DNA of 64,000 nt from Microcella indica (GTDB lineage: Bacteria > Actinomycetota > Actinomycetes > Actinomycetales > Microbacteriaceae). Positions 5,838-32,840 of the stretch are shown here, in pieces (position 1 is the stretch's first letter; every line of letters begins with the position of its first letter). The stretch spans positions 806,001-870,000 of the forward strand of contig NZ_CP058670.1 in NCBI RefSeq assembly GCF_013414345.1. The letters are read 5' to 3'. The notes below the pieces were generated by a model. The model made no database searches and was not told where the DNA came from. It worked only from the letters and a program-made list of their open reading frames with translations. The position numbers and the translations under genes were made by a program.

Positions 5838-5999
5838 CTTCTCACCGGGATCGATGAGGTGAACATCGCCCGCGGTGTCCTCGAGCACGTAGCAGTTGGT
5901 GAAGGCGACGTTCGATTCGCCGAGGTCGGCCTGCTCGATCACCCACATGCCGTCGCCGATCGCGGAAATTGACCCGATTGTGATCGGAACCCTTGACAT
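5838..5999 (-). pseudogene. N-terminal fragment of a metallo-beta-lactamase-fold hydrolase
   Basis: Read on the minus strand from the ATG at 5999, the first 52 or so residues match the start of MBL-fold enzymes. A strand pair is followed by TNCYVLED and LIDPG, the segment that normally precedes the zinc-binding HxHxDH loop. That loop and everything after it are absent; the frame continues into antisense of the membrane-protein fragment. The fragment probably belongs to the island side of the junction. Function is lost. Confidence 0.55.
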
Positions 6000-6022
6000 G
6001 GTTTACTCTTATCAGATTATGC
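5993..6022 (+). promoter_or_regulatory. Promoter with candidate GntR operator before the transporter operon
   Basis: TTGACA at 5993-5998 and ATTATG at 6016-6021 are separated by 17 bases, a good sigma-70-type promoter. Between them lies TTATCAGATT (6009-6018). It matches at 8 of 10 positions the element TTATCGGATC found, in reverse, in the promoter of the CoA-transferase operon at 18631-18640. Binding there would block polymerase. The assignment to the island's GntR protein is inference. Confidence 0.5.
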
Positions 6023-6073
6023 TGGACGGGCCGCGACGATGTTGTCTCGGCATCCCCTACAACCAGGAGTTCG

Positions 6074-7633
6074 ATGATGAATGACATGAGTCCGCGGCGA
6101 TTGCGCCGCTTTACATCGACGGCGACGGTGGCTCTTGCCGCCTTAGTGTTGACGGCTTGCGGCCCCGCGGCGACCGAGGGACCTGAGCAAGACATCGATC
6201 CGAATGGGAGCCTCACGTTCGGCTACTTCGAACCGGCAACCAGTCTCGACCCGCATGAGGGCACCTCGTCCCAGGACCTGCCCTGGCTGCTCCCTGTGTA
6301 CGCGAGCGTCTTGAGCTACAACGATGACGGCTCGGTGGCGCCCGGGCTCGCCGAGACGTGGGAGCTCACGGAGGATGCGTTGACTCTCACGTTGCGCGAA
6401 GGGTTGACATTCCACGACGGCACGACGTTGGACGCTGACGCTGTCGTTGCCAACCTGGAACGAGCCATGAACCTCGAGACCTCGAGCGTGAAGGGCGACC
6501 TGTCCACCGTGAGTGCGGTGGAGGCAACCGATGACCGAACTGTGGCGATCGAGCTGTCGGCGCCCGACGCTGCGTTGCCGGCGAAGCTCGCGGATCGTAG
6601 CGGCATGATCATCTCCCCGACGGCGTTCGACGACGGCACAAACCTCGCCATCGAGCCTGTCGGCGCGGGGCCGTGGAAGTCCGTCGATTACGCACCCGGA
6701 GACCACCTCACGGTCGAGCGGTTCGATGACTACTACGACCCCGACTCGGTGCTCCTTGCCTCGCTCACGATCCGGTTGATCGACGACGACGACACCCGCC
6801 TTAACGCGATCCGCGCGGGCGAGGTCGATGTCGCGCAGATCTCTGCCGCACAGGTCCAGCTCGCATCCGCGGACTCGAGTCTCGAAGTGCGCACCGACCC
6901 GGCGTTGGCGATCGACCACCTCGGGTTGAACATTTCAATCCCGCCCTTCGACGATCCGCGTGTCCGCGAGGCGATCAACTACGCGATCGATCGCGAGGCA
7001 CTTCTCGAGGGCATCTACCGCGGCACCGGCATCATTGCGTGGCAGCCCTTCCCGCCGGGATACTTCGCCAACGATCCTGAACTCGAGGAGATGTACCCCT
7101 ACGACCCGGACAAGGCTCGTGAGCTGCTGGCTGAGGCAGGCTATCCCGACGGCTTCTCATTCGACTTTCAGACGAACTCGCAGCCCTTCCGTGTTCAGGC
7201 AACTCAGGCGGTCGCCGGAATGCTCGCCGAGGTCGGAATTGAGACCAACATCATCACCATGGAGGGTCCGGCGCTACTCGACGCGTTCTACTACCAGAAC
7301 GCCGTTGCCGCCTACGTCACACCGTGGGGAGGTCGCGCCGACCCGTCGCAGACGCTAGACAACCTGTTCGGGCCGTCCGGTCTCAACAATCCTTCGAAGA
7401 TCACTGATCCGGAACTGGCCGACTTGCTCGACCAGGCGCGAGCTAGTGGCGACCAGGATGAGCGCGGGCAACTGTTCCGCGAGGCGTCGGAACTGATCAT
7501 GAAGGATTCTCGGATGATCCCGCTGATGTTCCCCGGCGTGACCACGGTCATCAGGGACAACGTCGTCGGATACTCGACGGACTTGACCGGCAAGGCCAAC
7601 TTCCTGAACGTAGGAGTGCTCGCCGCCGAGTGA
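6074..7633 (+). CDS. ABC transporter substrate-binding lipoprotein (DppA/OppA family)
   Basis: Extracellular receptor of the five-gene importer. It is a 519-residue lipoprotein: signal peptide with lipobox LTAC (Cys29), then a family 5 solute-binding domain. Family hallmarks are the opening YFEPATSLDPH, the LRLGLTFHDGT-type segment (here LREGLTFHDGT) and VREAINYAIDREALL near residue 300. Family members bind peptides but also nickel, sugars, glutathione or other amphipathic solutes, so the name does not fix the ligand. An AGGAG at 6065-6069 precedes adjacent ATGs at 6074 and 6077. The next gene begins 130 bases downstream, a spacing often seen when the receptor is made in excess. The catabolic genes around it suggest the ligand is their substrate. 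Confidence 0.9.
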   Translation: MMNDMSPRRLRRFTSTATVALAALVLTACGPAATEGPEQDIDPNGSLTFGYFEPATSLDPHEGTSSQDLPWLLPVYASVLSYNDDGSVAPGLAETWELTEDALTLTLREGLTFHDGTTLDADAVVANLERAMNLETSSVKGDLSTVSAVEATDDRTVAIELSAPDAALPAKLADRSGMIISPTAFDDGTNLAIEPVGAGPWKSVDYAPGDHLTVERFDDYYDPDSVLLASLTIRLIDDDDTRLNAIRAGEVDVAQISAAQVQLASADSSLEVRTDPALAIDHLGLNISIPPFDDPRVREAINYAIDREALLEGIYRGTGIIAWQPFPPGYFANDPELEEMYPYDPDKARELLAEAGYPDGFSFDFQTNSQPFRVQATQAVAGMLAEVGIETNIITMEGPALLDAFYYQNAVAAYVTPWGGRADPSQTLDNLFGPSGLNNPSKITDPELADLLDQARASGDQDERGQLFREASELIMKDSRMIPLMFPGVTTVIRDNVVGYSTDLTGKANFLNVGVLAAE

Positions 7634-7763
7634 TCTGATCAACGGCGCCGGCCGAGAACCACAGACTCTCCAGTGGAACATGGCCGTCCCATCGAGGGGG
7701 CGGTGGAATCGAGGAAACCGCAATGACGCGTAATACCGAAGGACTCTTCCGATCGGCAAGGTC

Positions 7764-8711
7764 ATGCTGAGTTTCATCATCCGCCGCCTCCTCGCACTCA
7801 TCCCGCAAATGCTCATTGCTGCACTCGTCGTCTTCGTGCTCACCTCGCTGCTCCCGGGTGACGCCGCGATCGCACGAGCGGGAGGCGAGTCGGCGACACC
7901 AGAGCTGATCGCCCAGTACCGCGAGCAGCTCGGGCTCGACAAACCCCTCGTGACACGGTTCTTCGACTTCGTCGTCAATGCCGCGACGGGCAACCTCGGG
8001 ATTTCGTTCAGCACGAACGAACCGGTCACCGACATCCTGATGCGCAAGGTGCCCGTCACCCTCAGTCTCGTCCTGCTCAGCTTCCTTGTCGCGCTTCTCA
8101 TCGCGCTTCCCCTCGGTATCGTCGCGGCACTGCACCCCAACGGTGTGGCTGACCGCGTTTCCCTCGCCATCGCGACGTCGGGTATAGCCATCCCCAACTT
8201 CTGGTTCGCCATCTTGTTGGTGCTCTTGTTTAGCCTGACGCTAGGATGGTTGCCCGCCACAGGCTATGTTTCGATCACTGAAAATCCTGGGCAGTGGTTC
8301 CTTCATTTGCTGCTGCCCGCCATCACCTTGGGCCACGCACTGGCGGCAGAGTTGACCCGCCAGTTGCGGGCGTCGCTCGGTGACCATCTTCGTCGCGATT
8401 ACGTGCGCACCATGCGCTCGGTTGGCCTGTCCGAAGTGAGCGTCGTCGGGAAGCACGCGCTGCGATCAGCGCTCGGTCCGGCAGTGACCACACTCGGGCT
8501 GCAGGTGCCGATCGCCATAGGTTCCGCAGTCGTGGTGGAAGCCGTCTTCGACCTACCGGGTATCGGCAGCCAGATGGTACAGGCCGTTTTCTCGCGTGAC
8601 ATTCAGGTTCTGCAGGGCGTGATTCTCTTCACCGTGCTGCTCGTGGTGGTGGCGAGCTTCTTGACCGATCTCGCCTATGCGTTGATCAACCCGAAGGTGA
8701 GAGTCCAATGA
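7764..8711 (+). CDS. ABC transporter permease (DppB/OppB family)
   Basis: A 315-residue membrane subunit with the N-terminal MLSFIIRRLLALIPQ signature of the DppB family, six hydrophobic segments, and the cytoplasmic EAA-type loop near residues 205-240 that docks to the ATPases. It pairs with the downstream DppC-type subunit. The stop overlaps the next start (ATGA at 8708), so the permeases are coupled. Confidence 0.93.
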   Translation: MLSFIIRRLLALIPQMLIAALVVFVLTSLLPGDAAIARAGGESATPELIAQYREQLGLDKPLVTRFFDFVVNAATGNLGISFSTNEPVTDILMRKVPVTLSLVLLSFLVALLIALPLGIVAALHPNGVADRVSLAIATSGIAIPNFWFAILLVLLFSLTLGWLPATGYVSITENPGQWFLHLLLPAITLGHALAAELTRQLRASLGDHLRRDYVRTMRSVGLSEVSVVGKHALRSALGPAVTTLGLQVPIAIGSAVVVEAVFDLPGIGSQMVQAVFSRDIQVLQGVILFTVLLVVVASFLTDLAYALINPKVRVQ

Positions 8712-9592
8712 CCCCCCCATCCCCGGCCACTGCGGTCATTCCCGTGGAGTCCTCTCGGCGTCGTCGAGGTCTCGCTCGCCGCATCATCGCGCGGCCCGCG
8801 GGATTGGCGAGCATCATCTTCCTCGTAGTTCTCGCGGTGATCTCGCTGCTGGGCCCATGGATCACGCCCTTCGATCCGAACCAGAACGACCTGCGCGGCG
8901 TCCTCCAGGCGCCGAACTTCGAGCACGTGCTCGGAACCGATGACTTGGGACGGGACGTGTTTTCACGGCTTCTCGTCGCCGGGCGGGTGTCGCTCTCAGC
9001 GACGTTCCAAGCGGTCGGGATCGGTTTAGTCTTCGGCGTGCTGCCGGGTGTCCTAGCGGGTTACCTCGGCGGCTGGTTCGACACGATCGTGACGCGCATC
9101 GCGGACGTGCTGCTGAGCTTCCCATCGCTCTTCCTCGCACTCGCCATCGTCGCCATCCTCGGCCCAGGTCTGGGTAATGCGATGCTCGCCGTCGGTATCG
9201 CTTATGCGCCTAGATTCCTGCGAATTGTGCGCGGGCAGATCCTCTTCGTTCGTAGCGAGACGTTTGTCGAAGCCGCCATATCGACCGGAATTCCGAGACA
9301 TCGCGTCATCTGGGCGCACATGCTCCCCAACGCCTGGCCGGCTCTCATCATCCAGATCTCCTTCATGCTCGGTCTCACTCTCATCATCGAGTCCAGCCTG
9401 AGCTATCTGGGTCTCGGCGTTCAGCCACCAGACGCGAGCTGGGGGTCGATGATCGGCGGTAGCAAGGCGTACATCGAGATTGCACCGTGGCTCGTGCTCG
9501 CGCCGGGACTCGTGATCTTCTTCACGTCTCTGGCGTTCAACACGCTCGGTGACGTGCTCCGTGATGAGGTAACAGGAGGTCGAGAAGGATGA
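8708..9592 (+). CDS. ABC transporter permease (DppC/OppC family)
   Basis: A 294-residue second membrane subunit. The N-terminal cytoplasmic segment is followed by the OppC_N-type helix, then the GTDDLGRDVFSRLL motif typical of DppC proteins near residue 78, and five further helices. The EAA loop (EAAISTGIPRHRVIWAHMLP) lies around residues 188-207. It is coupled by 4-base overlaps to both neighbours. Confidence 0.93.
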   Translation: MTPPSPATAVIPVESSRRRRGLARRIIARPAGLASIIFLVVLAVISLLGPWITPFDPNQNDLRGVLQAPNFEHVLGTDDLGRDVFSRLLVAGRVSLSATFQAVGIGLVFGVLPGVLAGYLGGWFDTIVTRIADVLLSFPSLFLALAIVAILGPGLGNAMLAVGIAYAPRFLRIVRGQILFVRSETFVEAAISTGIPRHRVIWAHMLPNAWPALIIQISFMLGLTLIIESSLSYLGLGVQPPDASWGSMIGGSKAYIEIAPWLVLAPGLVIFFTSLAFNTLGDVLRDEVTGGREG

Positions 9593-10623
9593 CGACGATG
9601 GAACGCACGGACGCGGCGACGAAAACCGGCGCGGCACCGCTACTGAGTGTCGAGGGATTCTCGCTCGACATCGCTCCTGGGCGTGAGTATCTACCGGTGC
9701 TCGACGACATCAGCCTGACGGTCGGTGCAGGAGAGGTCGTTGGACTGGTCGGCGAGTCGGGTTCGGGCAAATCGACGTTGGCGATGTCGCTCATCGGTCT
9801 CGTGCCGAAGCGCATCTCGCGTCAGCGCGGAGGTCGGATCTTGTTCAACGGGGTCGACGTCACCGCCCTGCCCGAGCGCGATCTGCGCGCGATCCGGGGC
9901 AGCCAGGTGGGGATGATCTTCCAGGAGCCGATGACGGCACTTGATCCCGCATACCGCGTCGGCGATCAAGTCGCTGAGGTTATCCGTCGGCACAACGGTG
10001 TCAGTCGGGCCGAGGCTCGCGCTCAGGTGATCGAGGACTTCCGCCTTGTCGAGATATCCGATCCCGAACGACGCGCCGATGCCTATCCGCATGAGCTTTC
10101 CGGAGGTCTGCGACAAAGAGTGTGCATCGCGATGGCAATCGCCTGCCGACCGAGTCTGCTCATCGCCGATGAGCCCACGACGGCACTCGACGTCACGACG
10201 CAGGCGCAGATCCTTGATCTGCTCCGACGGTTGCGTGCCGAAATGGACATGTCGATCGTGCTCATCAGCCACGATCTTGCGGTTATCGCTGAATTCTGCG
10301 ATCGGGTAATGGTCATGTATGCCGGGCAGATCGTCGAGCAGGCCCCCATAGACCCCTTCTTCGTCCGCCCGCGGCACCCCTACTCGTCGGCGCTTCTGCA
10401 GTCGCTACCGGAGAACCAGCCGCCACTTCAGCAGCTCTCAGTGCTTCGCGGATCTCCGCCAGCCCTCGGTCATGTCGCGTCGGGTTGTCGTTTCGCGGCC
10501 CGTTGTGATTTTGTTCAGCACGGACGGTGTGATGTGGAGCCGATACCTCTGCGTGGGCTCGACGGCGGTGCGGTGCGATGTGTTCGCGCTGAGGAGCTCG
10601 CTTTGCCGGGAGTAGGAGAATGA
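9589..10623 (+). CDS. ABC transporter ATPase (DppD/OppD family)
   Basis: A 344-residue ATPase with Walker [10 protein letters not shown] at residues 55-63, signature LSGGLRQRV, and Walker [13 protein letters not shown]. The C-terminal oligopeptide-transporter extension contains a cysteine cluster (GCRFAARC and GRC), a region that in some DppD/OppD proteins holds an iron-sulfur cluster. It forms a heterodimer with the following ATPase. Overlaps of 4 bases on both sides keep it in one transcript with the permeases. Confidence 0.93.
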
Positions 10624-11711
10624 CGGCCACGCAATCGTCCGCCGGCTCGGACGAGTTGGGCCCCGTAGTGCTCGAGGGTCTCAATCTCGTGAAGGACTTC
10701 GCCGGACGTTCTTCACTGTTCCGCCGCAGCCGCAGCCAGGTGCGTGCGGTCGACGAGGTGACCCTGAGCCTCCACGCGGGCCGCACCCTCGGATTGGTGG
10801 GTGAATCGGGTTCGGGCAAGTCGACGGTGGGTCGGTTGCTCCTGCGACTGGTGGGCACCACGAGTGGCGAGGTGCTGCTGGACGGTTCGGACGTGACGGC
10901 GATGCGTGGCAAGGCTTTGAGTCGTGCTCGCCGGTCCATGCAGATGGTGTTCCAGGACCCTTACTCCTCGCTCAACCCGACAATGCGCATCGGTGACATC
11001 ATCGGCGAGCCGGTCGCGTTCCACCGGAAGCTGAAGGGCGACGACCTGGATGCCGAGGTCGAACGGCTCCTGGTCAGCGTCGGTCTGTCGGCTACGCACG
11101 CTCGGCGGTTCCCTGACGAGCTGTCCGGGGGCCAGCGCCAGCGCGTGGCCATCGCACGCGCTCTGGCGCCGAACCCGAAGATCCTTGTCTGCGACGAGGC
11201 CGTGAGTGCCCTTGACATTTCGATTCAGTCGCAGATCCTCAACCTGCTGCTTGAGCTGCAACAGGAGTTCGGTGTCACCATCCTGTTCATCTCGCACGAC
11301 TTGTCGGTCGTGCGACATGTGAGTCGCGACATCGCCGTGATGTATCTCGGTCAGATCGTCGAGTTCGGGCCAGCAGATCGCGTCGTCGACAGCCCCGCAC
11401 ATCCGTACACAGCCGCTTTGCTCTCAGCCGTCCCGGAGGCGAAGCCTTCGCACGGTCGTGCCCGGGCGAAGGTGTTGCTGCAGGGCGATCCCCCCAGCCC
11501 GTCCCAGCGACCGGCGGGGTGTCCGTTCGTGTCTCGTTGCCCAGCTGCCTTCGAACCGTGCCACGTCATCCGGCCGGAGCACACCCCCGTCGACGGAGGT
11601 GGCACGGTCGCGTGTCACCTCCAGACGAGCGGACCCAAGCTTGCGGGCCGACCGGTCCCGTTGGAACTGATGCGCACTGCGCCTCGCGAGGCGCCAACGG
11701 AGAGCGCCTAG
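10620..11711 (+). CDS. ABC transporter ATPase (DppF/OppF family)
   Basis: A 363-residue second ATPase, with Walker [10 protein letters not shown] near residues 61-69, [15 protein letters not shown], and CDEAVSALD. The [15 protein letters not shown]-loop segment is typical of OppF. The C-terminal extension carries the cysteine motif GCPFVSRC, as in its partner. It is the last gene of the importer operon; the next gene has its own AT-rich promoter. Confidence 0.93.
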
Positions 11712-11729
11712 CAGTGTACTAGGCAATCC

Positions 11730-11776
11730 TTATTTTGTAGTATATTATAATAAGATATAATCGCCTCGAAGGAGAA
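11730..11776 (+). promoter_or_regulatory. AT-rich promoter of the beta-oxidation operon
   Basis: The most AT-rich stretch of the window separates the importer from the catabolic genes. It contains a perfect TATAAT at 11757-11762, and CTTATT/AATAAG inverted arms at 11730-11735 and 11750-11755 that could be an operator. AAGGAGA follows at 11770-11776 as the ribosome site for the ATG at 11780. The -35 is uncertain (TTGTAG at 11736-11741 is 15 bases away). Confidence 0.55.
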
Positions 11777-11779
11777 GAT

Positions 11780-12643
11780 ATGACATCCGTGAAGACACTG
11801 GCCGTCGTCGGCTCGGGCACGATGGGACACGGTATTGGACAACTCGCCGCCATGCAGGCCATTGACGTGCGCGTGTTCGACGTCGATTCCGCGGCCTTGG
11901 ACCGGGCACGTTCGGGAGTCCGCACGAGTCTTGACCGTTTCGTCAAGAAGGGCTCGATTAGCCAGGAGCAATCCGACAATATTCTCGGCCGGATGTCATT
12001 CGTCAACGACCTCGACAAGGCGGTCTCGGGCGCGGATGTCGTCGTGGAGGCCGTTCCTGAAGTGCTCGAGCTCAAGCAGAAGGTGTTCGCCGATCTCGAC
12101 AGTCGAGCCGACGAGTCGACGCTTCTCGCCACGAATACCAGCCAGCTCAGCATCACAGCCATCGCCTCGGTGACCAGCCACCCTGAGCGGGTGGTCGGGA
12201 TGCACTTCTTCAATCCACCTGTGATGATGCGCCTCGTCGAGATCATTCGCGGCACGCTCACGTCGGACGAGATGCTCGATCGCACGGTCGCGCTCGCTGA
12301 GCAGCTCGGCAAGGAGAGTGTCGTCTGCCAGCGTGATGCGCCAGGTTTCATCACCACCCGAGCGATCATGGCGTTGCGGCTGGAGTGCATTCGGATCTAT
12401 GAGGAGGGTATCGCCTCGATGGAGGACCTCGACAAGGCCATGCGTTTGGCCTTCAATCACCCGATGGGTCAGTTCGAGCTCAACGATTACAACGGCCTCG
12501 ACATCGCACTCCAGGGCTCGCGAAATTTGCGCGAGGCCTATGGCGAGCGTTTCGCGCCGCCGCCCAGCCTCGTTTCCCGAGTTGCGGCTGGCCGACTCGG
12601 TCGGAAGACCGGCGGCGGCTGGTACGACTACCCCACCGACTGA
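11780..12643 (+). CDS. 3-hydroxyacyl-CoA dehydrogenase
   Basis: NAD-dependent oxidation of a (3S)-hydroxyacyl-CoA to the 3-oxoacyl-CoA. The 287-residue single-function enzyme of the Hbd/PaaH type has a Rossmann nucleotide motif GSGTMGHGIG at residues 11-20, catalytic-dyad context GMHFFNPP (His142), TNTSQL before it, and the C-terminal helical domain ending GGGWYDY. It is the first gene of the operon running to the DUF35 gene and starts with a strong ribosome site. The substrate is not predictable beyond a short or medium hydroxyacyl-CoA. Confidence 0.9.
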   Translation: MTSVKTLAVVGSGTMGHGIGQLAAMQAIDVRVFDVDSAALDRARSGVRTSLDRFVKKGSISQEQSDNILGRMSFVNDLDKAVSGADVVVEAVPEVLELKQKVFADLDSRADESTLLATNTSQLSITAIASVTSHPERVVGMHFFNPPVMMRLVEIIRGTLTSDEMLDRTVALAEQLGKESVVCQRDAPGFITTRAIMALRLECIRIYEEGIASMEDLDKAMRLAFNHPMGQFELNDYNGLDIALQGSRNLREAYGERFAPPPSLVSRVAAGRLGRKTGGGWYDYPTD

Positions 12644-12686
12644 GCAAAGACCCCGAGACAACACCGATCCGAAGGAGAATCACGTC

Positions 12687-13508
12687 ATGGTTGCCACATC
12701 TGAATTCACCGACATCATCTACGAGAAAGCTGACCACGTCGCCCGGATTACGATCAACCGGCCCAAGTCCCTCAACGCCTACACCAACCACACCATGCGC
12801 GAGCTGGTGCTCGCTATCCAGGACGCGTCGTTCGACGGTGAGGTAGGCGTGGTCGTGATCACCGGGGCCGGTGACCGCGCGTTCTGCGCGGGCGGCGACG
12901 TCAAGTGGGAGGACGAGGGCGGCCTCGAAGCCACGTATGACTACTTCCCTGACATCCACAACGCCATCCGATGCTGCCTCAAGCCTGTGATCGCGCGAGT
13001 GAACGGCTACTCGATCGGCGGCGGCAACCACATGGCATATGCGTGCGACCTCACGATCGCCGCCGATCACGCCATCTTCGGTCAGAACGGTCCGTCGGTC
13101 GGCAGTCCAGCCGACGGCTTCACGGTCGCTCGCCTGTCGACCATCATTGGGCACAAGCGCGCTCGAGAGATGTGGTTCCTCAACCGCAAGTACACCGCCG
13201 CGCAAATGCTCGATTGGGGCCTCGTCAACGCGGTCGTGCCGTATGACAAGCTCGACGAAGAAGTCGACCAGTGGTGCCAGGAAATCCTGGCGAAGAGCCC
13301 CACGTGCTTGCGCGTGAACAAGGCGTCGTTTGAGGGTGCACTGGACAACCTGCGCAATCCCACCTTCTCTGTGCAGCGCATGCTCGCGCCGAACTACCTC
13401 GGTTCCGAGGAGCAGATGGAGGGCACAAAGGCATTCCTTGAGAAGCGCAAGCCCGACTTCAACAAGTTCCGGCGCGACGTCCCCGAGCTCTACACGAGCG
13501 CGAGCTAG
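12687..13508 (+). CDS. MenB/BadI-like crotonase (possible ring-opening acyl-CoA hydrolase)
   Basis: A 273-residue crotonase-fold protein. It follows the MenB/BadI branch rather than plain enoyl-CoA hydratases: GDRAFCAGGD at residues 62-71, PVIARVNGYSIGGGN, FGQNGPSVGS at 131-140, and the KRAREMWFL block at 157-165. The C-terminal EGTKAFLEKRKPDF is also characteristic. BadI opens 2-ketocyclohexanecarboxyl-CoA by hydrolysis; MenB closes a naphthoate ring. In this protein the residue aligning with the usual active-site Asp after VGS is Ala142, with an Asp one position later (Asp143), so neither activity can be assumed. Placed directly after the hydroxyacyl-CoA dehydrogenase, it could cleave a cyclic or branched 3-oxoacyl-CoA without a thiolase. 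It has AAGGAG before its ATG. Confidence 0.75.
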   Translation: MVATSEFTDIIYEKADHVARITINRPKSLNAYTNHTMRELVLAIQDASFDGEVGVVVITGAGDRAFCAGGDVKWEDEGGLEATYDYFPDIHNAIRCCLKPVIARVNGYSIGGGNHMAYACDLTIAADHAIFGQNGPSVGSPADGFTVARLSTIIGHKRAREMWFLNRKYTAAQMLDWGLVNAVVPYDKLDEEVDQWCQEILAKSPTCLRVNKASFEGALDNLRNPTFSVQRMLAPNYLGSEEQMEGTKAFLEKRKPDFNKFRRDVPELYTSAS

Positions 13509-13509
13509 C

Positions 13510-14280: not shown

Positions 14281-14284
14281 TCCG

Positions 14285-16218: not shown

Positions 16219-16244
16219 TTAGCCGTTCGACAAAGGAGACAGAG

Positions 16245-24583: not shown

Positions 24584-25503
24584 CGGGGGCTTCCACCCTA
24601 GGAATTGGCTTCGGACCGGGCACGCTGGGGTTCCCGTCCGGGGCCGGGGTCTTGCGATTCGCTGAGCGGGCGGAAGAGCTCGGATTCGACCACTTCTGGG
24701 TCAATGACCACGTCTCCTGGCAACATCCGCTCATCGACCCGGTGGTGTTGCTCTCGGCGGTCGCCGCACGTACCACGACCATTCGCCTGGCGACGGGGGT
24801 TTACTTGCTTCCGCTGCGGTCTCCGGCTGCCACGGCACGCTCCTTCGCTGGCCTGGACTACATCAGCGGCGGACGTACGATCGTCGGCGTGGGGGTAGGC
24901 GGTGAGTTCGAGGCGGACTTCGCGGCGGCGGGGGTGGCAATGCGACGTCGTGGTCCACGGACTGACACGTCCATTCGCCTCCTTCGTGCATTTTGGCGAG
25001 GGGAGGCAGTCAGCTGGCATGACGCCGACTTCGATTTCGAGGACGCCCTGGTGCTGCCAGCGCCCGTTCAGGAAAACATCCCGATCATCGTGGGCGGCCG
25101 GTCTGATGCGGCCCTGAGGAGGGCCGCGACGCTCGGCGACGGGTGGATGCCGTACCTCATGAGTCCCGATCGCGTTGCGGAAGGGGCTCGACGCATCGAC
25201 GAGCTTGCACCGGATCGGCACAAGCGGATTATCGCGCACGTCTTCGTGTATTTCGACGCCGACGCCGACGTCGCCCGTCGCAAGGCGACCGACTACCTCA
25301 CCGCGCAGTACCACCAGGATATGACGCGAACGGTCGAGCGGTGCGTACCGTGCGGGTCGGCGGACGTCGTCGCGGAGAAGCTCAGGGCTTATGTTGACGC
25401 AGGAGCCACAGATATCGTCGTCCGGCCGCTGGCTTCACCTGAAGCCCTATTCAGCTCTCTCGAAGAAGCCGGCGCCGTGTCGGCAGGATGGACGCGCGGA
25501 TGA
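24580..25503 (+). CDS. LLM-class (luciferase-like) oxidoreductase, probably F420-dependent
   Basis: A 307-residue TIM-barrel protein of the bacterial luciferase superfamily. It has AERAEELGFDHFWVNDH near residues 28-44, TTTIRLATGVYLLPLRSP, GRTIVGVGVGGEFEADFAAAG, and IPIIVGGRSDAALRRAA. In actinobacteria most such proteins use coenzyme F420 as a hydride carrier, but FMN-dependent monooxygenases share the fold, so the cofactor is inferred. It could catalyse a reduction, a dehydrogenation or an oxygenation of the ring or side chain. GTGA and ATGA overlaps fix it in the CoA-transferase operon. Confidence 0.8.
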   Translation: MTGASTLGIGFGPGTLGFPSGAGVLRFAERAEELGFDHFWVNDHVSWQHPLIDPVVLLSAVAARTTTIRLATGVYLLPLRSPAATARSFAGLDYISGGRTIVGVGVGGEFEADFAAAGVAMRRRGPRTDTSIRLLRAFWRGEAVSWHDADFDFEDALVLPAPVQENIPIIVGGRSDAALRRAATLGDGWMPYLMSPDRVAEGARRIDELAPDRHKRIIAHVFVYFDADADVARRKATDYLTAQYHQDMTRTVERCVPCGSADVVAEKLRAYVDAGATDIVVRPLASPEALFSSLEEAGAVSAGWTRG

Positions 25504-26708
25504 AAGGGTTCGGGATGGCAGACGAGGACAAGGGGGGCCCGCTTTCCGGAGTGAGGGTTCTCGCGATTGAGAATTTCCTCTCCGGTCCCTACGGGAGCAT
25601 GATGCTGGCCGATTTCGGCGCTGAAGTGGTCAAGGTGGAGCCTCGCGAAGGCGATGGCTATCGTCGGGCGACGCCCAACTACCACACGAAGGACGGGCGA
25701 ATGAGCTATTCCTTCCTTCGCGTCAACAGGAACAAGAGGAGTGTCGTTCTCGATTTGAAGACCGAGGAAGGGCGAGAGGACTTTCTCGCGCTCGCGGATG
25801 AGGCGGACGTCGTGTGGGAGAACTTGCGTCCCGGGGCGATGGAACGGCTCGGTCTCGGTTGGGAGGACTTGAAGGCACGCAATCCGCGTCTCGTATACGC
25901 CACGATCTCTGGCTTTGGACATGGAGACGTACTTCCGGCCGGACCGTATATGAGTCTTCCCGCTTTCGACATCGTTGCTCAGGCGATGAGCGGCGCGATG
26001 CTGCGCATCGGCAAGGAAGGTGATCCACCGATGTACCTCGGTTCGCCTATCGCCGATCAGCTGGCGGGAATGATGGCTGCTTTCGGGGTTGTACTAGCGT
26101 TGCGGGGCGTCGATGAGAAGGGTGGTGGCCAGCACGTCGATATCGCCATGTACGACGTCATGGTGGCGTTGAACGAGCAGCTGATCGGCCACGTGTCGCA
26201 CTTCGGCGAGATGCCTAAGCGAGGATTGAGCCCAACTTCGGCGCCGTATGGCGCTTTCCGGACCAAGGACGGCTGGGTCGCAATCGGGATCGCGAGCGAC
26301 GAAATCTGGGCGAGGTTTTGCGCCGCCATCGGTCGGCCCGACTTGGCGACGGCACCCGATCTCTCGACGGGTATCAAACGTGCAGCGAATCAGGAGTCCA
26401 TCCTGCGCCCCGCGATCGAGGATTGGGCATCGGGTCGGACGTCCCTGGAGATCACGATGTTGCTGTCCAAAGCTGGTGTACCGTCCGGTCCGGTACAGGA
26501 TGTCGCACAGCTCTTCGACGATCCCCAGGTGGCTGTGCGGGAGATGCTCATCGATGTGGACGACCCCGTGATCGGTCGCCTCACCGTCGCTGGCAACCCC
26601 ATCAAGCTGAGCGGGTCACCGCATGCTCCACGACGGACCGCTCCGCAGCTCGGTGCTGATCAGCAGCTGCTCGGGGAATGGGCGACGACCGGAAGACGTC
26701 GGCGTTGA
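25500..26708 (+). CDS. Family III CoA-transferase (CaiB/BaiF type), Asp-containing
   Basis: A 402-residue paralogue of the protein encoded at 18684: both start GVRVLA.ENF..GP and share PAFD...QAMSG. The catalytic Asp is present in VDIAMYD. Together they form the pair most likely to be true CoA-transferases in this island, perhaps one for entry of the substrate and one for a later free acid or dicarboxylate. ATG at 25500 overlaps the preceding stop; an in-frame ATG at 25515 is a possible alternative start. Confidence 0.85.
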   Translation: MKGFGMADEDKGGPLSGVRVLAIENFLSGPYGSMMLADFGAEVVKVEPREGDGYRRATPNYHTKDGRMSYSFLRVNRNKRSVVLDLKTEEGREDFLALADEADVVWENLRPGAMERLGLGWEDLKARNPRLVYATISGFGHGDVLPAGPYMSLPAFDIVAQAMSGAMLRIGKEGDPPMYLGSPIADQLAGMMAAFGVVLALRGVDEKGGGQHVDIAMYDVMVALNEQLIGHVSHFGEMPKRGLSPTSAPYGAFRTKDGWVAIGIASDEIWARFCAAIGRPDLATAPDLSTGIKRAANQESILRPAIEDWASGRTSLEITMLLSKAGVPSGPVQDVAQLFDDPQVAVREMLIDVDDPVIGRLTVAGNPIKLSGSPHAPRRTAPQLGADQQLLGEWATTGRRRR

Positions 26709-26748
26709 AGCCTCGGAGCCACGCGCTTGCGGTCCGCCGGAGGCCCTG

Positions 26749-27969
26749 ATGGCGTCGAAACCCGGGGCGGCGAAAGGGGGCGCTTTGCTGATCGCGTCAC
26801 TGACCCTCGCAATGGCGACAGGCGCGACGGGGACCTACTCTTATGCCACGCTCTCCCCATTCCTACTGCCGAGTCTTGGGATGACGCCGGGCGGGATGGG
26901 CCTTCTCTTCGGCGGTCTGTATACAGTCGCCGCGGCGTCGAGCGGTGTGATCGGCAGGATCACGGATCGCGTTGACCCGACGCTCGTCGTTCTCGTCGGT
27001 TCGGCGTGCTCCCTGGTCGGAACCTTATTGCTCGCGGCTAGCTTCTCGATCATAGGACTGGCCGCCTCGGCCCTTTTCGCCGGGCTTGCCATGGCGGCGT
27101 CGAACCCAGGAAGCAATGGCATGATCGCTCACCGGATCCCGCCCGGATCGCGCGCATTCGCGACTGGAATCAAGCAGTCGGGAGCCACCGGCGCCGGTCT
27201 CTACCTGGCCGTGGTGCTTCCCGGTCTCGCCGTGGCCGTCGGCTGGCGGTGGGCGTCGCTCGCCGCGGTGATCATTCCCATCCTCGCGGTGATTACAGTG
27301 CTGATCGGTCGGCGATCTTCTCAGGCCGCTATGGAACCCGAGGTGACCACGGACCCGCACGAACCGCGAAGACTGACGTGGCTTTCCTGGCTTGCAGGCT
27401 ATGCCCTCCTGCTCGGCGTGGCCACTGGGATCTGCAATGGCTTCTACGTGCTGTACGCCCACAGCCTGGGATTTGGTGTTGTCGAGGCGGGCCTGGTCTT
27501 CGCCGTCTTTGCCGTCTTGTCCGTCATCGCCCGGATCGTCTGGGCGAGATTGAGCGAAACCACATGGTCGCCCGCTCAGCTGTTGGGTGCGGTCGCGGTC
27601 ATTGGAGCAATCTCGGCGCTCTTGTGCCTGGTCGCGCCGGCCGTCGGGGACTGGGCCGTGTGGTTCGCCGCAGGAATGGGCGGCCTGTCGATCGTCGGAT
27701 GGAACGCCCTCGGAATGGTCACGATCATGCAGAATGTCAAACGAGATGCGGTGGGTGTCTCGGCCTCTCGCATGCTGCGCGGGTTCTTTGTCGGCCTTGC
27801 GATCGGACCGCTCACATTCGGTGCGCTCGTCGAGTTCGGCGGCTACTCAGTGGGCTGGCTCTTTCAGTTCGTCGTTCTCCTTCTTGCGATCGGCGTCGCC
27901 TACTTCTTCGGTCGTTCTCTAGCCATGCATACGCCGCCGGGGTCCCATCTGCCTCGCGAGGCGCTCTAG
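26749..27969 (+). CDS. MFS transporter
   Basis: A 406-residue major facilitator with about 12 hydrophobic helices in two halves, separated by a polar loop near residue 200. The segment GRITDRVDPT after helix 2 matches motif A. It has AGGCC/GGAGG context before the ATG at 26749 and lies 40 bases after the CoA-transferase gene. It may import the substrate or export an intermediate. Similar single-component permeases of organic acids occur in many catabolic clusters. Direction and ligand are not readable. Confidence 0.82.
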   Translation: MASKPGAAKGGALLIASLTLAMATGATGTYSYATLSPFLLPSLGMTPGGMGLLFGGLYTVAAASSGVIGRITDRVDPTLVVLVGSACSLVGTLLLAASFSIIGLAASALFAGLAMAASNPGSNGMIAHRIPPGSRAFATGIKQSGATGAGLYLAVVLPGLAVAVGWRWASLAAVIIPILAVITVLIGRRSSQAAMEPEVTTDPHEPRRLTWLSWLAGYALLLGVATGICNGFYVLYAHSLGFGVVEAGLVFAVFAVLSVIARIVWARLSETTWSPAQLLGAVAVIGAISALLCLVAPAVGDWAVWFAAGMGGLSIVGWNALGMVTIMQNVKRDAVGVSASRMLRGFFVGLAIGPLTFGALVEFGGYSVGWLFQFVVLLLAIGVAYFFGRSLAMHTPPGSHLPREAL

Positions 27970-28808
27970 TGCCGGGCTGGGTGGCGCCCGTCTATGCGCC
28001 GCTCGCGTGGCAATGGTCTCCGGCAGAGGTCAGACGATACGCCCTCGCGGTCGGAGCGCCGTATTCGGTGATTGATAGGCGCGATCTCCGGTTGGTCACC
28101 ACCAACGAGCCGGACGTTCTGCCGACCTTCGCGAGCTTGCTCGCGGACGGCCACAGTCTGCGGAACGTTCCGCTTCGCGGCTTAACCTTCGATCCGCTCG
28201 ACGTGATCTACGCTGGTCACGAAGTCGAGCTGACCGGTCCGTTGCGTCCGACGACCGCGGGGACGAGCACATCCCGGATCTTGGACGTCGGAGACGTCCG
28301 AAGCGGCGTGCTCGTTCGGCGGGAGACGGTGAGCCGCGACGGTGACGATCGGGTCATCGCGCGGAATGTAGTGACGAGCGTGATTCGCCGCGCTTCGGTG
28401 GGCCGGACTGCAGATGTCGGCGTCGCAGTGCCGGAGCAGCTCTCTGGCGACATCGCTACGCTCGTCGTGCCAACCCTCGACCGGCAAGCGCTTTTCTACG
28501 CCGAGACCGGCGACCATAATCCACTCCATGTCGATCCGGAGGCTGCGCGGCGCGCAGGATTCGAGCGTCCGATCCTGCACGGGCTGTGTGCGTTCGGAAT
28601 GGTCGTGCACCGGGTCGTCCGAGATCTCGCGGATCAGGGCTGGCAGGGCGTTCGCGCCACAGGGGTTCGCTTCACTGCGCCAATCGTGCCCGGCGAGGAG
28701 ATCATCGTGCGCGCGGCCCGATCGGGAGACATCATCCGCTTTGAATCCTTTGTTGGCGACCGAAGGGTGCAGTCCCACGGTCACGTCGATCTGGAATCAA
28801 TGCACTAG
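27969..28808 (+). CDS. Two-domain MaoC-like (R)-specific enoyl-CoA hydratase
   Basis: A 279-residue double hot-dog protein. The N-terminal half is a degenerate hot-dog. The C-terminal half carries the hydratase 2 motif AETGDHNPLHVDPEAARRAG (residues about 178-197), with Asp and His as the catalytic pair, then PILHGLC. This is the layout of peroxisomal hydratase 2 and of actinobacterial steroid/fatty-acid hydratases. It forms or dehydrates (3R)-hydroxyacyl-CoA, in contrast to the crotonases in the cluster. GTG shares its first base with the stop of the MFS gene. Confidence 0.85.
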   Translation: MPGWVAPVYAPLAWQWSPAEVRRYALAVGAPYSVIDRRDLRLVTTNEPDVLPTFASLLADGHSLRNVPLRGLTFDPLDVIYAGHEVELTGPLRPTTAGTSTSRILDVGDVRSGVLVRRETVSRDGDDRVIARNVVTSVIRRASVGRTADVGVAVPEQLSGDIATLVVPTLDRQALFYAETGDHNPLHVDPEAARRAGFERPILHGLCAFGMVVHRVVRDLADQGWQGVRATGVRFTAPIVPGEEIIVRAARSGDIIRFESFVGDRRVQSHGHVDLESMH

Positions 28809-28843
28809 GACTCGTTTCGTCGTCGCTCGAAAGGACAGTCATT

Positions 28844-29602
28844 GTGGAGCAGCTTCCAGCCGCACCGTCGTTCCGCCTCGACGGCAGCACGGCGCTCATC
28901 ACCGGCGCTAGCCGCAATATAGGCCGCGCAATCGCGTCGGCGTTCGCTCACGCTGGATCGGACTTGGTGATAGTCGCACGGGACCCCGTGAGGCTCGGAC
29001 TCGTCGCGGAGTCGATTCGGGGAGAGACCGGAGTCGTGGTCCGCGAGGTCGCTACTGACATCGCCTCGACCGAGGGACTCGACTCGGTGATGCGGGAGCT
29101 CGACGCCGGTCCGGTCGACATTCTGGTGAACAACGCGCACATCACCGGCGGCACGACATCGATCGTGTCGGCAGACGACGAACTCTGGAACACGGTGTTC
29201 TCGACAAATCTCTGGGCGCCCCTTCGGCTCGCGCGGCGGCTACTCCCGCAGATGACGGCAGCCGGTTCGGGCTGCATCATCAATCTCATGTCTGGCTCTG
29301 GCCTGCAACCGACGCCGGAATTGGCCCCCTACGGGGTGAGTAAGGCCGCCTTGTGGATGCTCACCCGCTATCTCGCTGTTGAGGCTGCTCCCACCGTCCG
29401 AGTCAACGCGTTGTGCCCGGGCCTCGTAAGCGAGGACGGTACACCGCGCAACGAATCCCACCGCGCGATCATCGGAACCGTTCCGATGGGTCGGGTAGGT
29501 CGGCCTGAAGAGATCGCGGGCGCCGCGGTCTATCTCGCCAGTAGCGCGGCGAGTTATGTAACGGGCGAACTTCTCATCGTCAATGGCGGGCGGCCATGGT
29601 GA
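28844..29602 (+). CDS. Short-chain dehydrogenase/reductase
   Basis: A 252-residue classical SDR. It shows the nucleotide motif TGASRNIG at residues 20-27, the NNAH motif (NNAG variant) near 94, a catalytic Ser in NLMSGSG, and YGVSKAALW with Tyr and Lys. The C-terminal MGRVGRPEEIAGAAVYLAS and VNGGRPW are typical. With the MaoC-type hydratase immediately upstream, a (3R)-hydroxyacyl-CoA or ring-hydroxyl dehydrogenase role is plausible. GTG at 28844 is preceded by AAAGGACA. Confidence 0.87.
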   Translation: MEQLPAAPSFRLDGSTALITGASRNIGRAIASAFAHAGSDLVIVARDPVRLGLVAESIRGETGVVVREVATDIASTEGLDSVMRELDAGPVDILVNNAHITGGTTSIVSADDELWNTVFSTNLWAPLRLARRLLPQMTAAGSGCIINLMSGSGLQPTPELAPYGVSKAALWMLTRYLAVEAAPTVRVNALCPGLVSEDGTPRNESHRAIIGTVPMGRVGRPEEIAGAAVYLASSAASYVTGELLIVNGGRPW

Positions 29603-29843
29603 TGGACAAAAGCGGCTCATCGCAAACGAGAGTGTAGGTAGTCGGGAGCGCGTCGAGATCGCGGCCCGCACGGGGTCGCCTGACCCGGGAACTTCGGTCC
29701 ATCAGCGATGGGAGTCATCTTGTTACCTCGCCCTATGACGAGCGACTACGCCGAGACTGCAACTGTCGAGCTGCTCGAGAGCTCGTCGTCGAGGAGCCTA
29801 GCCGTCGAGGCTGCGTGCGACGTCATCGACCGAAGGACGAGAT

Positions 29844-30752
29844 TCAGCCGCGCGTCACCGAGCCGGTACGTGCGGCGAGAGTTCTGGTGATGGTCGGCCC
29901 AGTCAGGAACCATGCGGCAATCATCGCGGCGGTGCCGATCGCGAACACGAGCGCTCCCCACCAGGACACGTCGTCGCGTGAAGCGTACATGTGGTTGAGG
30001 TTGCGCAGCAGCCCCGTCGTAGCAACCAGCGTGACGTGCACAATGACGAACGCGACGAACGCGAGCATCGTCGGATAGTGCACCGCTCGTGCGATCTCGA
30101 TCGGATAGACGCGGCTGAGACGCACGGCCGACGAGGGCCACAGTGGCGACATTCGAAGTCCGGTCACGATCGCGAGCGGAGCGAGAATGAATACGACGCC
30201 GAAGTAGCTGAGAACCTGGAGTGCGTTGTACGCGATCCAACCGTTCTCGGTCGGCCAGTCAAGAGACGCATACTGCAGGAAGACCGAGAGTGCGTTGGGT
30301 ACGACTTCCCACGTGGTCGGGACGATCCGGGCCCAGTGGCCGGTGGCGAAGATGAGTATCACGAACACGACGCCATTGAGGACCCAGAGCACGTCCAACG
30401 CAAGATGCAACCACAATGTGACGCTGATCTTTGTGCCGGTGAAGCGGCTGGTGCGCGGCGCCCAGTAAGCGCGTGGCCGCTGCGTTGTGCGGACCTCCCA
30501 GCCAGTCTTGACGATGAGAAGGAGGAAGAACGCGTTGAGGTAGTGCTGCCAGGCGAGCCACACCGGCACCCCCTCCGGCGTCCCGGGGAGCGGCTCGAGC
30601 ACGCCAGGATAGTCCGCGATGAAGGACGAGACCGGCTCGAGTGTGCGCATCCCGCGGGCAACGAATATCCCGACGACGACCACGATGACCGCAACAATCG
30701 TTGTCGCGATCCAGCGCGCCCGGCGAGAAGCCAGAATGTCTGAGCGAATCAT
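29844..30752 (-). CDS. Membrane cytochrome b-like protein linked to ETF
   Basis: A 302-residue membrane protein with six or so helices resembling the cytochrome b/b6 or b561 fold. Histidines suitable as heme ligands lie in helices: His70 ([12 protein letters not shown]), His116 (LWLHLALD), and His225 and His239, 14 residues apart in one helix. Its ATG overlaps the etfA stop by 4 bases. I infer that it accepts electrons from ETF, directly or through another dehydrogenase, and passes them to quinone. No ETF-quinone oxidoreductase is encoded in the window. Heme binding is inferred from residue pattern only. Confidence 0.7.
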
Positions 30753-31714
30753 CGGCGGCGGTCGAGTTCGTCGATCAGTTGCGGCACGATCGTGAAGACG
30801 TCGCCCACAATGCCGAAGTCGGCGATCTCCAGGATCGGTGCCTTCGAATCCTTGTTGATCGCGACGATGACTTTCGACGTCTGCATGCCCGCGCGGTGCT
30901 GGATGGCACCGGAGATCCCGAGCGCCACGTAGAGCTGGGGTGCAACCGTCACTCCCGTCTGGCCCACTTGGAGTGATTGCGAGGCGTATCCGGCGTCGAC
31001 CGCGGCGCGCGAAGCGCCCACGGCGGCACCGAGGGCGTCGGCCAAGCGGCCAGCAAGTTCGAAGCCCTCTGCCGAGCCGAGCCCGCGTCCTCCGGAGACG
31101 ACGCGCTGCGCAGTGCGGAGGTCGGGACGCTCCTCGTTCGCCTCGATCTCCTCGACACTCTCCACTGTGACTGCCTCGGCATCGGCGAGATTGTCGAGCC
31201 GACTCACTTCAGGCGTCGTCGCATCGCCCGCCGCCGCCGCCGCCCCCTCCCGGATGGTCACGACCAGGGGTCCCGCGTCGGCGCGCGACTCCACGGTGAA
31301 TGACCCGCCCAACACCGAGTGCTCGGCGAGCGGAGCGCCATCGACTGTTCGCACGGCGACGGCATCGGTGGCGAGCGCGGCACCAATGCGGACAGCCAAT
31401 CGGGCAGCGACCTCGCGTGCACCGACGGCATTGATTGCGAGTACTGCGATCGGATTGACCGCCGCGTACGCCGCGGTAGCCGCCTCAAGCTCCGCGTTTT
31501 CTCGCCATTCGCCCGTGCCAGTGATCTCGGCGATGAGAACTTTGCTGGCCCCAGCCGCAGTCACTGTTTCGACGGCGTCGTCGACCTCGTCCGCACGGGC
31601 TGCCACCACGGTGACCGGGTCGCCAAGGCGGCGCGCCATACTCAGCAGCGTGCCCACTGACTCGCGGATCCGACCCTTCCGGTCCGTGCTCGCCAGCACG
31701 AGTACTGTACCCAT
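30749..31714 (-). CDS. etfA: Electron transfer flavoprotein alpha subunit
   Basis: A 321-residue FAD-binding subunit. The C-terminal domain is diagnostic: GGRGLGS, then [20 protein letters not shown], then [21 protein letters not shown] around residues 250-285. ATG at 31714 follows AAGGAG by 7 bases; an in-frame ATG five codons upstream lies before that ribosome site and is less likely. It collects electrons from the island's two acyl-CoA dehydrogenases. This is a dedicated copy; the organism probably has another ETF elsewhere. Confidence 0.95.
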
Positions 31715-31725
31715 GGTGTTCTCCT

Positions 31726-32490
31726 TCAAACCAATCGTTGCGAGGTAAGGAAGTCCGCGAGTTGCACGGCCGCGTCGCCCGAATCGACGATGGTGGTGCC
31801 CGCGGTACGAATCGGTGCCTGCTCTACAGTGGTCACGATGGAGCGTCTGGCAGGAAGTTCCGCAGAAATATCGGCAAGACTGAAGCGTTCGAGCGGCTTC
31901 TTCTTCGCTTGCATGATCCCTCGGAAACCGGCTATGCGGGCCTCCGGCGAGCGTTCGGTAACCGAGATGATCGCAGGCAGCGCGGCCCGAACGGTTACGC
32001 GCTCCGATCCGACAACCCGAACGCCGCGAACGCTCTCCTCGTCGATAACGACTTCATCGAGACCTGTGAGGTGGTGGACGCCGAGGTGTTCGGCGACCAT
32101 AGCGGGGAGGACTCCGCCGCGCCCGTCGCTGGATTCATTTCCTGCGACGACGACATCGAATCCAGCGTGCCTGATGGCGGCCGCGAGTACTGTGGCTGTC
32201 GTCATCATGTCAGCGCCCTCGAGTGCAGGATCGACGACGTGGATGGCGCGATCGACGCCCATCGCGAGCACTCGGCGTAGCATGTCAGTTGCGGATTCGG
32301 GACCCATTGTGAGTACGACGACCTCGGCCTCCGAACCATCGCGATATCTCAGTGCGACCTCGACGGCGCGCTCCCCGATCTCGTCAATCACTGGCTCAGG
32401 CTCGTGGCGATCGATGCGTCCGCTGGCCGGATCGAGGCGTCGATCCCCCCAGGTGTCAGGAACCTGCTTAATGAGAACAAGGATGCGCAC
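31726..32490 (-). CDS. etfB: Electron transfer flavoprotein beta subunit
   Basis: A 254-residue AMP-binding subunit. It begins [14 protein letters not shown] and contains the family stretch [24 protein letters not shown] (residues about 115-138) and the recognition-loop region [13 protein letters not shown] near residue 190, which contacts dehydrogenases. GTG start after AAGGAGG. It is first in the etfB-etfA-cytochrome operon, which converges on the rest of the island. Confidence 0.95.
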
Positions 32491-32840
32491 GAAGTCTTCC
32501 TCCTTGGAAAGTGTTATTTGGGTCGTTCACTCTCCATAAAGAGTATACTAGTCGAAGAAGCGCAAGGGATCAGCTATGGCAACGCCGTGCATTCAGGGAT
32601 CAGCGCTTCCTGCTTATGGGAGAGGATGCGCCTGGTCGCCCGCATAGAGTGTGGCTCCTTCAGGATCTCATCGACGCCGTCGCCGAGTTCGTTCTTGGAA
32701 TCGGAGCCGGACACCTTGAACTCGCCGCACCGGGCCGGTGCGATCCTGCACCGTTCGGCGACGACAGCTGTCAACACCATCGGATGGCGCCGGTGTTGCG
32801 CCGGTCGCCCGGCAACTGCATCGTCGACATATTTTGATCG
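32491..32840. other. Gene-free right edge of the island
   Basis: The first part is the etfB leader and promoter on the minus strand: ribosome site at 32501-32509 and a TATACT-type -10 (plus-strand AGTATA at 32542-32547). From about 32560 to 32840 no open frame resembles a known protein on either strand. A minus-strand frame covering 32574-32921 has protein-like composition in its last third but no start signal. It may be a remnant of a gene destroyed at the junction. Confidence 0.4.

Follow-up and report, generated by a model that had tools for sequence, protein, structure and literature searches.

The window analysed here is a stretch of 64,000 nucleotides from Microcella indica (NCBI RefSeq assembly GCF_013414345.1, contig NZ_CP058670.1, forward-strand positions 806,001 to 870,000), and the system of interest is a block of catabolic genes inserted into it at 5840..32940. 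We consider that this island was probably acquired horizontally and that it directs the breakdown of an acid, in which activation by a coenzyme A (CoA) transferase of the BbsEF (benzylsuccinate) type would be followed by oxidation, hydration and retro-aldol cleavage, with electron transfer by components of its own. An earlier note on this DNA had described a self-contained catabolic island for an acid, and that description holds: there are 26 intact genes, the insertion is defined at both ends and the genes are conserved together elsewhere.

The island interrupts a host gene

A relative in the same genus that lacks the island (genome G001, locus L121) allowed us to define the insertion. Host DNA of the window matches G001 up to position 5839 and again from 32941, with identities of 95% in the left flank and 83% in the right. 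Between the counterparts of these two positions the relative has only 82 bases, where the window has 27,101 bp. The interrupted gene, whole in G001, encodes a membrane protein of 142 codons; the window holds the first 44 of these (5706..5837, + strand) and the last 68 (32947..33153, + strand), the latter followed by an XRE regulator that extends to 33389. The host promoter region is duplicated: an 81-bp copy (32841..32921, + strand) stands ahead of the C-terminal piece and is 75% identical by blastn to the one that precedes the left junction. The GC content of the insert is 0.640, compared with 0.673 in the left flank and 0.702 in the right. Since the site is unoccupied in a close relative, the block qualifies as a genomic island. 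Its extent had been put at 5838-32530, which is right to within 2 bases at the start and falls short at the right end, now placed at 32940.

Family scans (Pfam or NCBIfam) covered 23 of the 26 island proteins, the remaining three (one permease and two ATPases) being named by sequence and synteny. Neither an integrase nor a transposase is present among the scanned proteins; transposase genes do lie upstream of the copy of the island in the marine actinobacterium PHSC20C1. The transfer-messenger RNA gene at 4002-4373, 1.5 kb to the left of the junction, was considered as an attachment site and rejected, because it is also present in the island-free relative. The left junction cuts a gene for a metallo-β-lactamase (MBL)-fold hydrolase, of which the first 54 residues remain (5838..5999, − strand); at the same place, the island copy in an Actinomycetales metagenome-assembled genome (MAG) has a homologue of 320 residues, 50% identical over 44 residues. 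MBL-fold genes recur near the clusters L097, L099 and L107 as well as at 5838-5999 of the window, and two of them are annotated 'N-acyl homoserine lactonase family'. The substrate might occur as a lactone.

The whole island recurs in two other genera

Related loci were collected by a pattern scan of a species-genome collection with the Ltp-like protein of the island, the putative lyase described below, and 79 loci were kept from the best 80 of 167 confirmed stretches. Two of them are complete islands with the same gene order and identities of 51-92%. That of PHSC20C1 (L018) has 26/26 genes and that of the MAG (L037) 25/26, the missing gene being that of the MenB-like crotonase. Each carries one extra crotonase and one extra acyl-CoA dehydrogenase, and in both the EtfB-EtfA-cytochrome block lies on the main strand, whereas it is inverted in the window. 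Within the host's family, the lyase was found at E <= 1e-100 in 4 of 398 sampled genomes: the host's own, two that match the coordinates of L018 and L037 and belong to other genera, and one that matches Protaetiibacter (L035), where the lyase is 65% identical and the smaller module described below is all that is present. A class-wide sample gave 2 of 394 genomes, the host's own included. The synteny of 26/26 and 25/26 genes in two other genera therefore points to a travelling pathway rather than to a chance cluster. The earlier note had staked its proposal on conservation of the genes outside this strain and on the cluster having no strong identity to a known pathway; two further genera of the family do have complete islands, and the searches made returned no characterised pathway that matches the whole cluster.

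Two CaiB proteins resemble the subunits of benzylsuccinate CoA-transferase

The 2.585-Mb, one-contig genome has six CaiB-family matches, five of which are located in the island. Comparison with PDB sequences singles out two of them. CaiB3 (22143..23393, + strand) scores 354.5 bits against chain B of benzylsuccinate CoA-transferase (9fn0_B), the next entry reaching 173.1, and CaiB2 (21073..22179, + strand) scores 181.8 bits against the other chain (9fn0_A), followed by an entry at 63.5. The motif GTGTNYxDHV is common to CaiB3 and 9fn0_B, and PDHxPNPxH, which aligns with 9fn0_B, occurs in CaiB3 and in 20/20 of its homologues. When the five island proteins are aligned, CaiB2 has Leu at the position of an Asp found in the other four, which we take to be the CoA-carrying residue of the family; Asp is absent from this column in all 19 CaiB2 homologues. 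On the strength of these matches, CaiB2 and CaiB3 are assigned as BbsE- and BbsF-like subunits of a BbsEF-type heterodimer, in which CaiB2 would be the non-catalytic partner. A resemblance to the Bbs pathway had been remarked on earlier and is strengthened by this activating pair. The excerpt of PMC10818641 cited here gives succinyl-CoA as the donor for BbsEF and has it set free by BbsAB.

CaiB4 (23390..24583, + strand), aligned to 1x74 and 8rmw, shares GHDINY and a following Asp with mycobacterial alpha-methylacyl-CoA racemase, in which these residues are presumably catalytic; its best PDB match is a formyl-CoA transferase (209 versus 193 bits). CaiB1 (18684..19898) and CaiB5 (25488..26708), both on the + strand, are assigned by family scans to the class III CoA-transferase family.

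A putative thiolase-fold lyase of a separate clade

The Ltp-like thiolase-fold protein (16215..17408, + strand) is followed directly by a stand-alone DUF35 protein with a zinc ribbon and an OB fold (17405..17812, + strand), its putative partner, whose zinc cysteines are kept in 20/20 homologues. The best PDB match of the lyase is the lipid-transfer protein 6ok1 (E 5.9e-75), ahead of BbsB (7pxp, E 3.7e-28). We take 6ok1 to be Ltp2 of T. curvata, whose residue numbers it fits. The numbering is that of PMC12329534, an excerpt of which assigns Tyr294, in the motif YDHF, as the base, Tyr344 as the acid and His296 to the oxyanion hole. Equivalents of both tyrosines are present in the window lyase, where the motif reads YDNF. 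Across 23 aligned sequences of this YDN type (the window, 20 loci and two plasmids), the column of the thiolase cysteine is Gly in all 23, the window reading SMGGATAG there. In the lyase tree, these 23 rows form one group (support 98/97, recovered in 99% of bootstrap trees) and 46 YDH rows another. The lyase of Chelativorans and the thiolase of Rhodococcus form long branches; some of the former does not align well with the other sequences, and its YDNF motif is backed by pairwise tblastn. Judged by these residues, the lyase with DUF35 would be a retro-aldolase that cleaves 3-hydroxyacyl-CoA.

The protein shares the thiolase fold, the DUF35 partner and the counterparts of Tyr294 and Tyr344 with the steroid aldolases Ltp2-ChsH2(DUF35) and Sal-Shy. 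It differs from them in having YDNF in place of YDHF (Ltp2) or YDCY (Sal), in belonging to a separate clade, in a DUF35 protein that is not fused to a hydratase, and in its place beside BbsEF-like CoA-transferases. The likeness to steroid side-chain degradation suggested earlier can therefore be kept for the type of C-C lyase and given up for the clade, which is not the steroid-type YDH clade.

The lyase belongs to a conserved module

In 20 of the collected loci (12 Pseudomonadota, 6 Actinomycetota and 2 Chloroflexota, the two complete islands included), the YDNF lyase, 60-92% identical to that of the window, is accompanied by a smaller set of genes; the next loci have lyases at <=48%. Neighbours were counted at E <= 1e-20 over more than half the length, with at least 40% identity for CaiB3-, ECH3- and ACAD2-like proteins. 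By these measures, the 20 loci have CaiB3-like and DUF35 neighbours in 20/20, CaiB2-like in 19/20 (the exception is the Jiangella locus L030), those like the crotonase ECH3 in 19/20 and those like the acyl-CoA dehydrogenase ACAD2 in 8/20. The BbsF-like neighbour follows the clade of the lyase, being present in 20/20 YDN, 0/46 YDH, 1/8 YDC and 0/5 YDA loci. Four YDH loci have a DUF35 neighbour and two an ACAD2-like match. No P value is attached to these counts, since some loci are truncated by contig ends and those of one clade are not independent.

Among the 59 other loci, CaiB3-like and CaiB2-like matches each occur in one, and both in the same one. This locus, L039, has a YDCF lyase and is the sole case of the pair near a lyase outside the YDNF group; it is possibly an intermediate form. 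A second YDC locus, L053, has a CaiB3 match of 32%, under the limit.

The island encodes one short-chain dehydrogenase/reductase (SDR; 28844..29602, + strand), 11 kb from the lyase. With this protein as the sole SDR query, matches were found in 4 of the 18 YDN loci that have the module only, in 1 of them beside the lyase; this rarity would be expected if YDNF lyases skip the 3-oxo step, and does not amount to proof. LLM-class oxidoreductases, 28-35% identical to that of the island, lie near the module in four loci from Actinomycetota and Chloroflexota (L020, L030, L034 and L035), a hint that such enzymes do take part in the pathway.

Plasmids also carry such CoA-transferases, with four records for CaiB3 (E <= 1e-80) and the same four for CaiB2 (E <= 1e-30). 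YDNF lyases are encoded on the plasmids of Variovorax SRS16 and Chelativorans AA-79, and the latter also has relatives of the 3-hydroxyacyl-CoA dehydrogenase HCDH (59% identical), ACAD2 (62%) and CaiB5 (52%), making it the nearest counterpart outside the family among the regions examined. Of two Rhodococcus opacus plasmid records, one was examined, pLP414 of strain 3D (L136), where relatives of CaiB3 (47%) and CaiB2 (42-43%) lie 8.5 kb apart. This plasmid shares DUF35 and enoyl-CoA hydratase pieces with the island. It differs in that its BbsF-like gene, hydratase pieces and DUF35 are followed by a Cys-bearing BbsB-like thiolase and two tandem SDRs. Almost all of this thiolase is covered by the BbsB model, its second-best, at 300.3 bits (cut-off 750), against 107.5 bits for the window lyase. 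The plasmid cluster looks like a thiolytic counterpart.

An ETF with a candidate quinone reductase

The last three genes of the island encode, on the − strand, a cytochrome b561-like membrane protein (29844..30752; Pfam 28 bits, cut-off 30.1) and the electron transfer flavoprotein (ETF) subunits EtfA (30749..31729) and EtfB (31726..32490). The EtfA of the island is the single match in the genome. Searches of the genome for PF05187 (ETF:quinone oxidoreductase, ETF-QO) and for PF02754 (the CCG domain, as in EtfD) gave 0 matches each, with controls positive in 3/14 and 12/14 genomes, respectively. The cytochrome, of 302 residues, adjoins EtfAB in all three islands, and its His 70, 116, 225, 239 and 254 are invariant in 4/4 homologues; an AlphaFold2 model built from four sequences has a mean predicted local distance difference test score (pLDDT) of 50.

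In an excerpt of PMC13083937, mycobacterial EtfD is described as an acceptor of ETF electrons in the membrane, containing a b haem and four Fe-S clusters. The island protein would be like it as a membrane protein and ETF acceptor and differs in having no CCG or 4Fe-4S part. We regard it as a candidate ETF:menaquinone oxidoreductase, other acceptors for the flavoprotein also being conceivable. If the assignment is true, the cytochrome provides a compact candidate route for ETF electrons to quinone in a genome without a match to EtfD or ETF-QO.

In genome G031, the EtfB-EtfA-cytochrome b cassette is present twice (L135, 6909-10331 and 12228-15650), in inverted orientation and with equal BLAST identities to the window genes, adjoining another CaiB/ABC catabolic cluster. 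These copies may hint at the origin of the inversion in the window.

Proposed pathway

From these observations we infer a sequence of reactions, a substrate class and a role for the cytochrome. A branched organic acid would be imported by an ATP-binding cassette (ABC) system and a major facilitator superfamily (MFS) permease, and the CaiB2/CaiB3 heterodimer would activate it with succinyl-CoA as donor, CaiB4 epimerising the CoA ester if needed. ACAD2 (19895..21076, + strand), which keeps the usual Glu, would then dehydrogenate the ester and ECH3 (15433..16218, + strand) would hydrate the product; both hydratase Glu residues of ECH3 are kept, as they are in 19/20 loci, the best match in the remaining locus, L023, being a MenB-like protein without them. 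The Ltp/DUF35 pair would cleave the 3-hydroxyacyl-CoA directly, giving an acyl-CoA plus a carbonyl product (aldehyde, ketone or oxo-acid). Our best guess for the substrate is a branched di-acid such as a 2-substituted succinate; with the latter, the acyl-CoA released would be succinyl-CoA, priming the next round. HCDH, the MenB-like protein, ECH2, ACAD1, the MaoC-like protein, the SDR, the LLM protein, CaiB1 and CaiB5 may process a precursor or the carbonyl fragment, and electrons would pass through the island ETF and then probably the cytochrome b to menaquinone. The earlier note had remarked on the absence of a ligase, a ring oxygenase and a canonical thiolase. Neither an AMP-dependent ligase nor a ring oxygenase is present among the 23 scanned proteins and the lyase has no thiolase Cys; CoA transfer together with the putative retro-aldol cleavage would account for the lack of both ligase and thiolase.

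The anaerobic toluene degraders' Bbs system (bbsABCDEFGH) is a close parallel, with a two-subunit class III CoA-transferase, an acyl-CoA dehydrogenase, a hydratase, an ETF and a thiolase-fold protein with a stand-alone DUF35 partner; ACAD2 and ECH3, with their usual Glu residues, may correspond to BbsG and BbsH. The island differs in that its lyase has aldolase residues in place of the thiolase Cys of the BbsAB type, that it has one SDR and no tandem pair of the BbsCD type, and that it carries its own importer, a racemase-like protein, five CaiB proteins, an LLM protein and a MenB-like crotonase. No glycyl-radical benzylsuccinate synthase was seen among the scanned island proteins, to which this search was confined. 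Among the open-licence papers listed, judged by titles and abstract openings, none concerns a BbsEF-type transferase with an Ltp-type aldolase, and the listings on cyclohexaneacetic or naphthenic acids and on alkylsuccinates held nothing on this gene arrangement.

Several observations weigh against this pathway. The loci in which the genes co-occur were all collected with a single seed protein and lack phylogenetic independence. Three of the eight ACAD2-like genes in the YDN loci, themselves present in just 8/20 at the 40% limit, lack the usual Glu. The oxyanion-hole His296 of Ltp2 is Asn in the window lyase and the second Tyr is Phe in 3/23 rows (L024, L025 and Variovorax), both tyrosines being kept in the other 20; the chemistry may therefore differ. 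Our view of CaiB2 as non-catalytic derives from one alignment, and an Asp lies three residues before the aligned site in CaiB2 of the window and in 6/19 homologues, where 9fn0_A has Asn. The SDR and HCDH are both in the island, so that a classical 3-oxo route is possible. The role of the MenB-like crotonase lacks an explanation, and some module loci adjoin genes of the MmgE/PrpD, PrpF, tricarboxylate-transporter, thiamine pyrophosphate (TPP)-enzyme, aldehyde-dehydrogenase or citrate-synthase-like families.

A bolder proposition is that the YDNF group makes up a third class of thiolase-fold aldolases, acting outside steroid metabolism, that its members form with the BbsEF-type transferase a ligase-free, self-priming cycle, and that the cytochrome b is an Fe-S-free ETF:menaquinone oxidoreductase; this we offer tentatively and, on balance, with doubt. 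Were it true, such a cycle would enable aerobes to live on alkyl- and arylsuccinates, among them the ones that anaerobic hydrocarbon degraders release. Should the pathway proposed above be right, a single module spanning three phyla would combine the activation half of an anaerobic route with a cleavage half known from steroid catabolism, and a reaction would be suggested for proteins now annotated as thiolases or lipid-transfer proteins; a YDNF motif beside a BbsEF-like pair would then be the recognition mark of the module.

Alternative pathways

An alicyclic-acid pathway, of the cyclohexanecarboxylate type, would make ring opening central, with ACAD1, ECH2, HCDH and the MenB-like protein as analogues of AliB, BadK, BadH and BadI and the Bbs-like module finishing a di-acid. 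The four genes are contiguous: HCDH (11780..12643), the MenB/BadI-like crotonase (12687..13508), the crotonase ECH2 (13510..14280) and the acyl-CoA dehydrogenase ACAD1 (14285..15436), all on the + strand. The MenB-like protein scores 265.8 bits with TIGR03210 (badI) and 277.7 with PRK07396 (MenB), three plasmid relatives (50-53% identical) among the matches listed are annotated badI, and Pseudacidovorax (L023) has a 59% identical gene beside its YDNF module. However, the protein falls under the curated cut-offs of both models (467.6 bits for badI). L023 has no ECH3, so that its MenB-like protein may take part in a different step in that locus. The MAG island lacks the gene, the best match in that genome (38%) being located elsewhere. 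The gene set can thus do without the MenB-like gene, and the earlier label BadI-like is weak. We judge an alicyclic route unlikely.

In a second alternative, the substrates are branched or hydroxylated di- or tricarboxylic acids (of the aconitate, itaconate or 3-substituted glutarate kind) and retro-aldol cleavage yields acetyl-CoA and an oxo-acid. The neighbour families listed above, with TctA/TctC as the transporters, suggest this for some related loci, family scans having covered 30 of the 326 neighbour ORFs in the 20 loci, and the module therefore probably serves several acids, some of them perhaps polycarboxylic. CaiB1 (282 bits) and CaiB5 (323 bits) also resemble the succinyl-CoA:mesaconate CoA-transferase model (cut-off 700). 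Those families are nevertheless not among the 26 genes common to the complete islands, and CaiB2/CaiB3 have their best matches in a transferase for a substituted succinate. For the island itself, we give this route the same small chance as the alicyclic one.

Ordinary beta-oxidation, with the Ltp-like protein as a thiolase in a Bbs-type pathway, appears improbable. The thiolase fold, the BbsB model match (107.5 bits), the presence of SDR and HCDH and a Cys three columns beyond the thiolase-Cys column in 5/23 YDN rows would agree with it; the Gly in 23/23 rows, the two aldolase tyrosines in 20/23 and a BbsB cut-off of 750 bits, far above the score, argue against it. Degradation of a steroid or bile-acid side chain, suggested by the Ltp2/DUF35 homology, is very improbable given a lyase outside the YDH clade, a DUF35 protein that stands alone and is not fused to a MaoC domain, and no ring-degrading family among the scanned proteins.

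Remaining genes and related clusters

ORF calls with the Pfam and NCBIfam scans place the 26 intact genes between 6074 and 32490, with all of the gene classes named in the earlier note and one GntR/FCD regulator (17831..18556, − strand). All genes except this regulator and the last three are on the + strand, and many gene ends overlap or nearly touch; long antisense ORFs in the island are taken as the usual high-GC shadows. The ABC importer, of the family-5 type, has five + strand genes: the SBP_bac_5 solute-binding lipoprotein (6074..7633) and permease B (7764..8711), both named by scan, and permease C (8708..9592) and the ATPases D (9589..10623) and F (10620..11711), named by sequence and synteny. 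Further downstream on the same strand are the LLM-class oxidoreductase (24580..25503; TIGR03619, the F420 type, above cut-off), the MFS permease (26749..27969) and a double-hotdog MaoC/MFE-2 hydratase-like protein (27969..28808). The genome has cofD and the LLM protein could therefore use F420; three thiolase genes are present elsewhere in the genome.

As a marker of the island, the MenB-like crotonase was rejected: at E <= 1e-60 it was found in 4 of 149 relatives (the host's own and three at 46-55% identity), the three regions are other clusters, and the MAG island does without the gene. Its best relative, in G031, lies in a different CaiB/ABC/ETF cluster with identities mostly of 25-47%, which by sequence appears akin in style and not the same pathway. 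Plasmids of Leisingera and Celeribacter (L098 and L099) have MenB-like relatives of 56-60% in catabolic clusters with xanthine-dehydrogenase-family genes and tripartite ATP-independent periplasmic (TRAP) transporters.

In the lyase tree, contigs titled as Bifidobacterium breve MAGs (L048, L079 and L088) place their YDHF-type Ltp2 among uncultured actinobacterial ones on very short branches, and these are possibly mislabelled bins.

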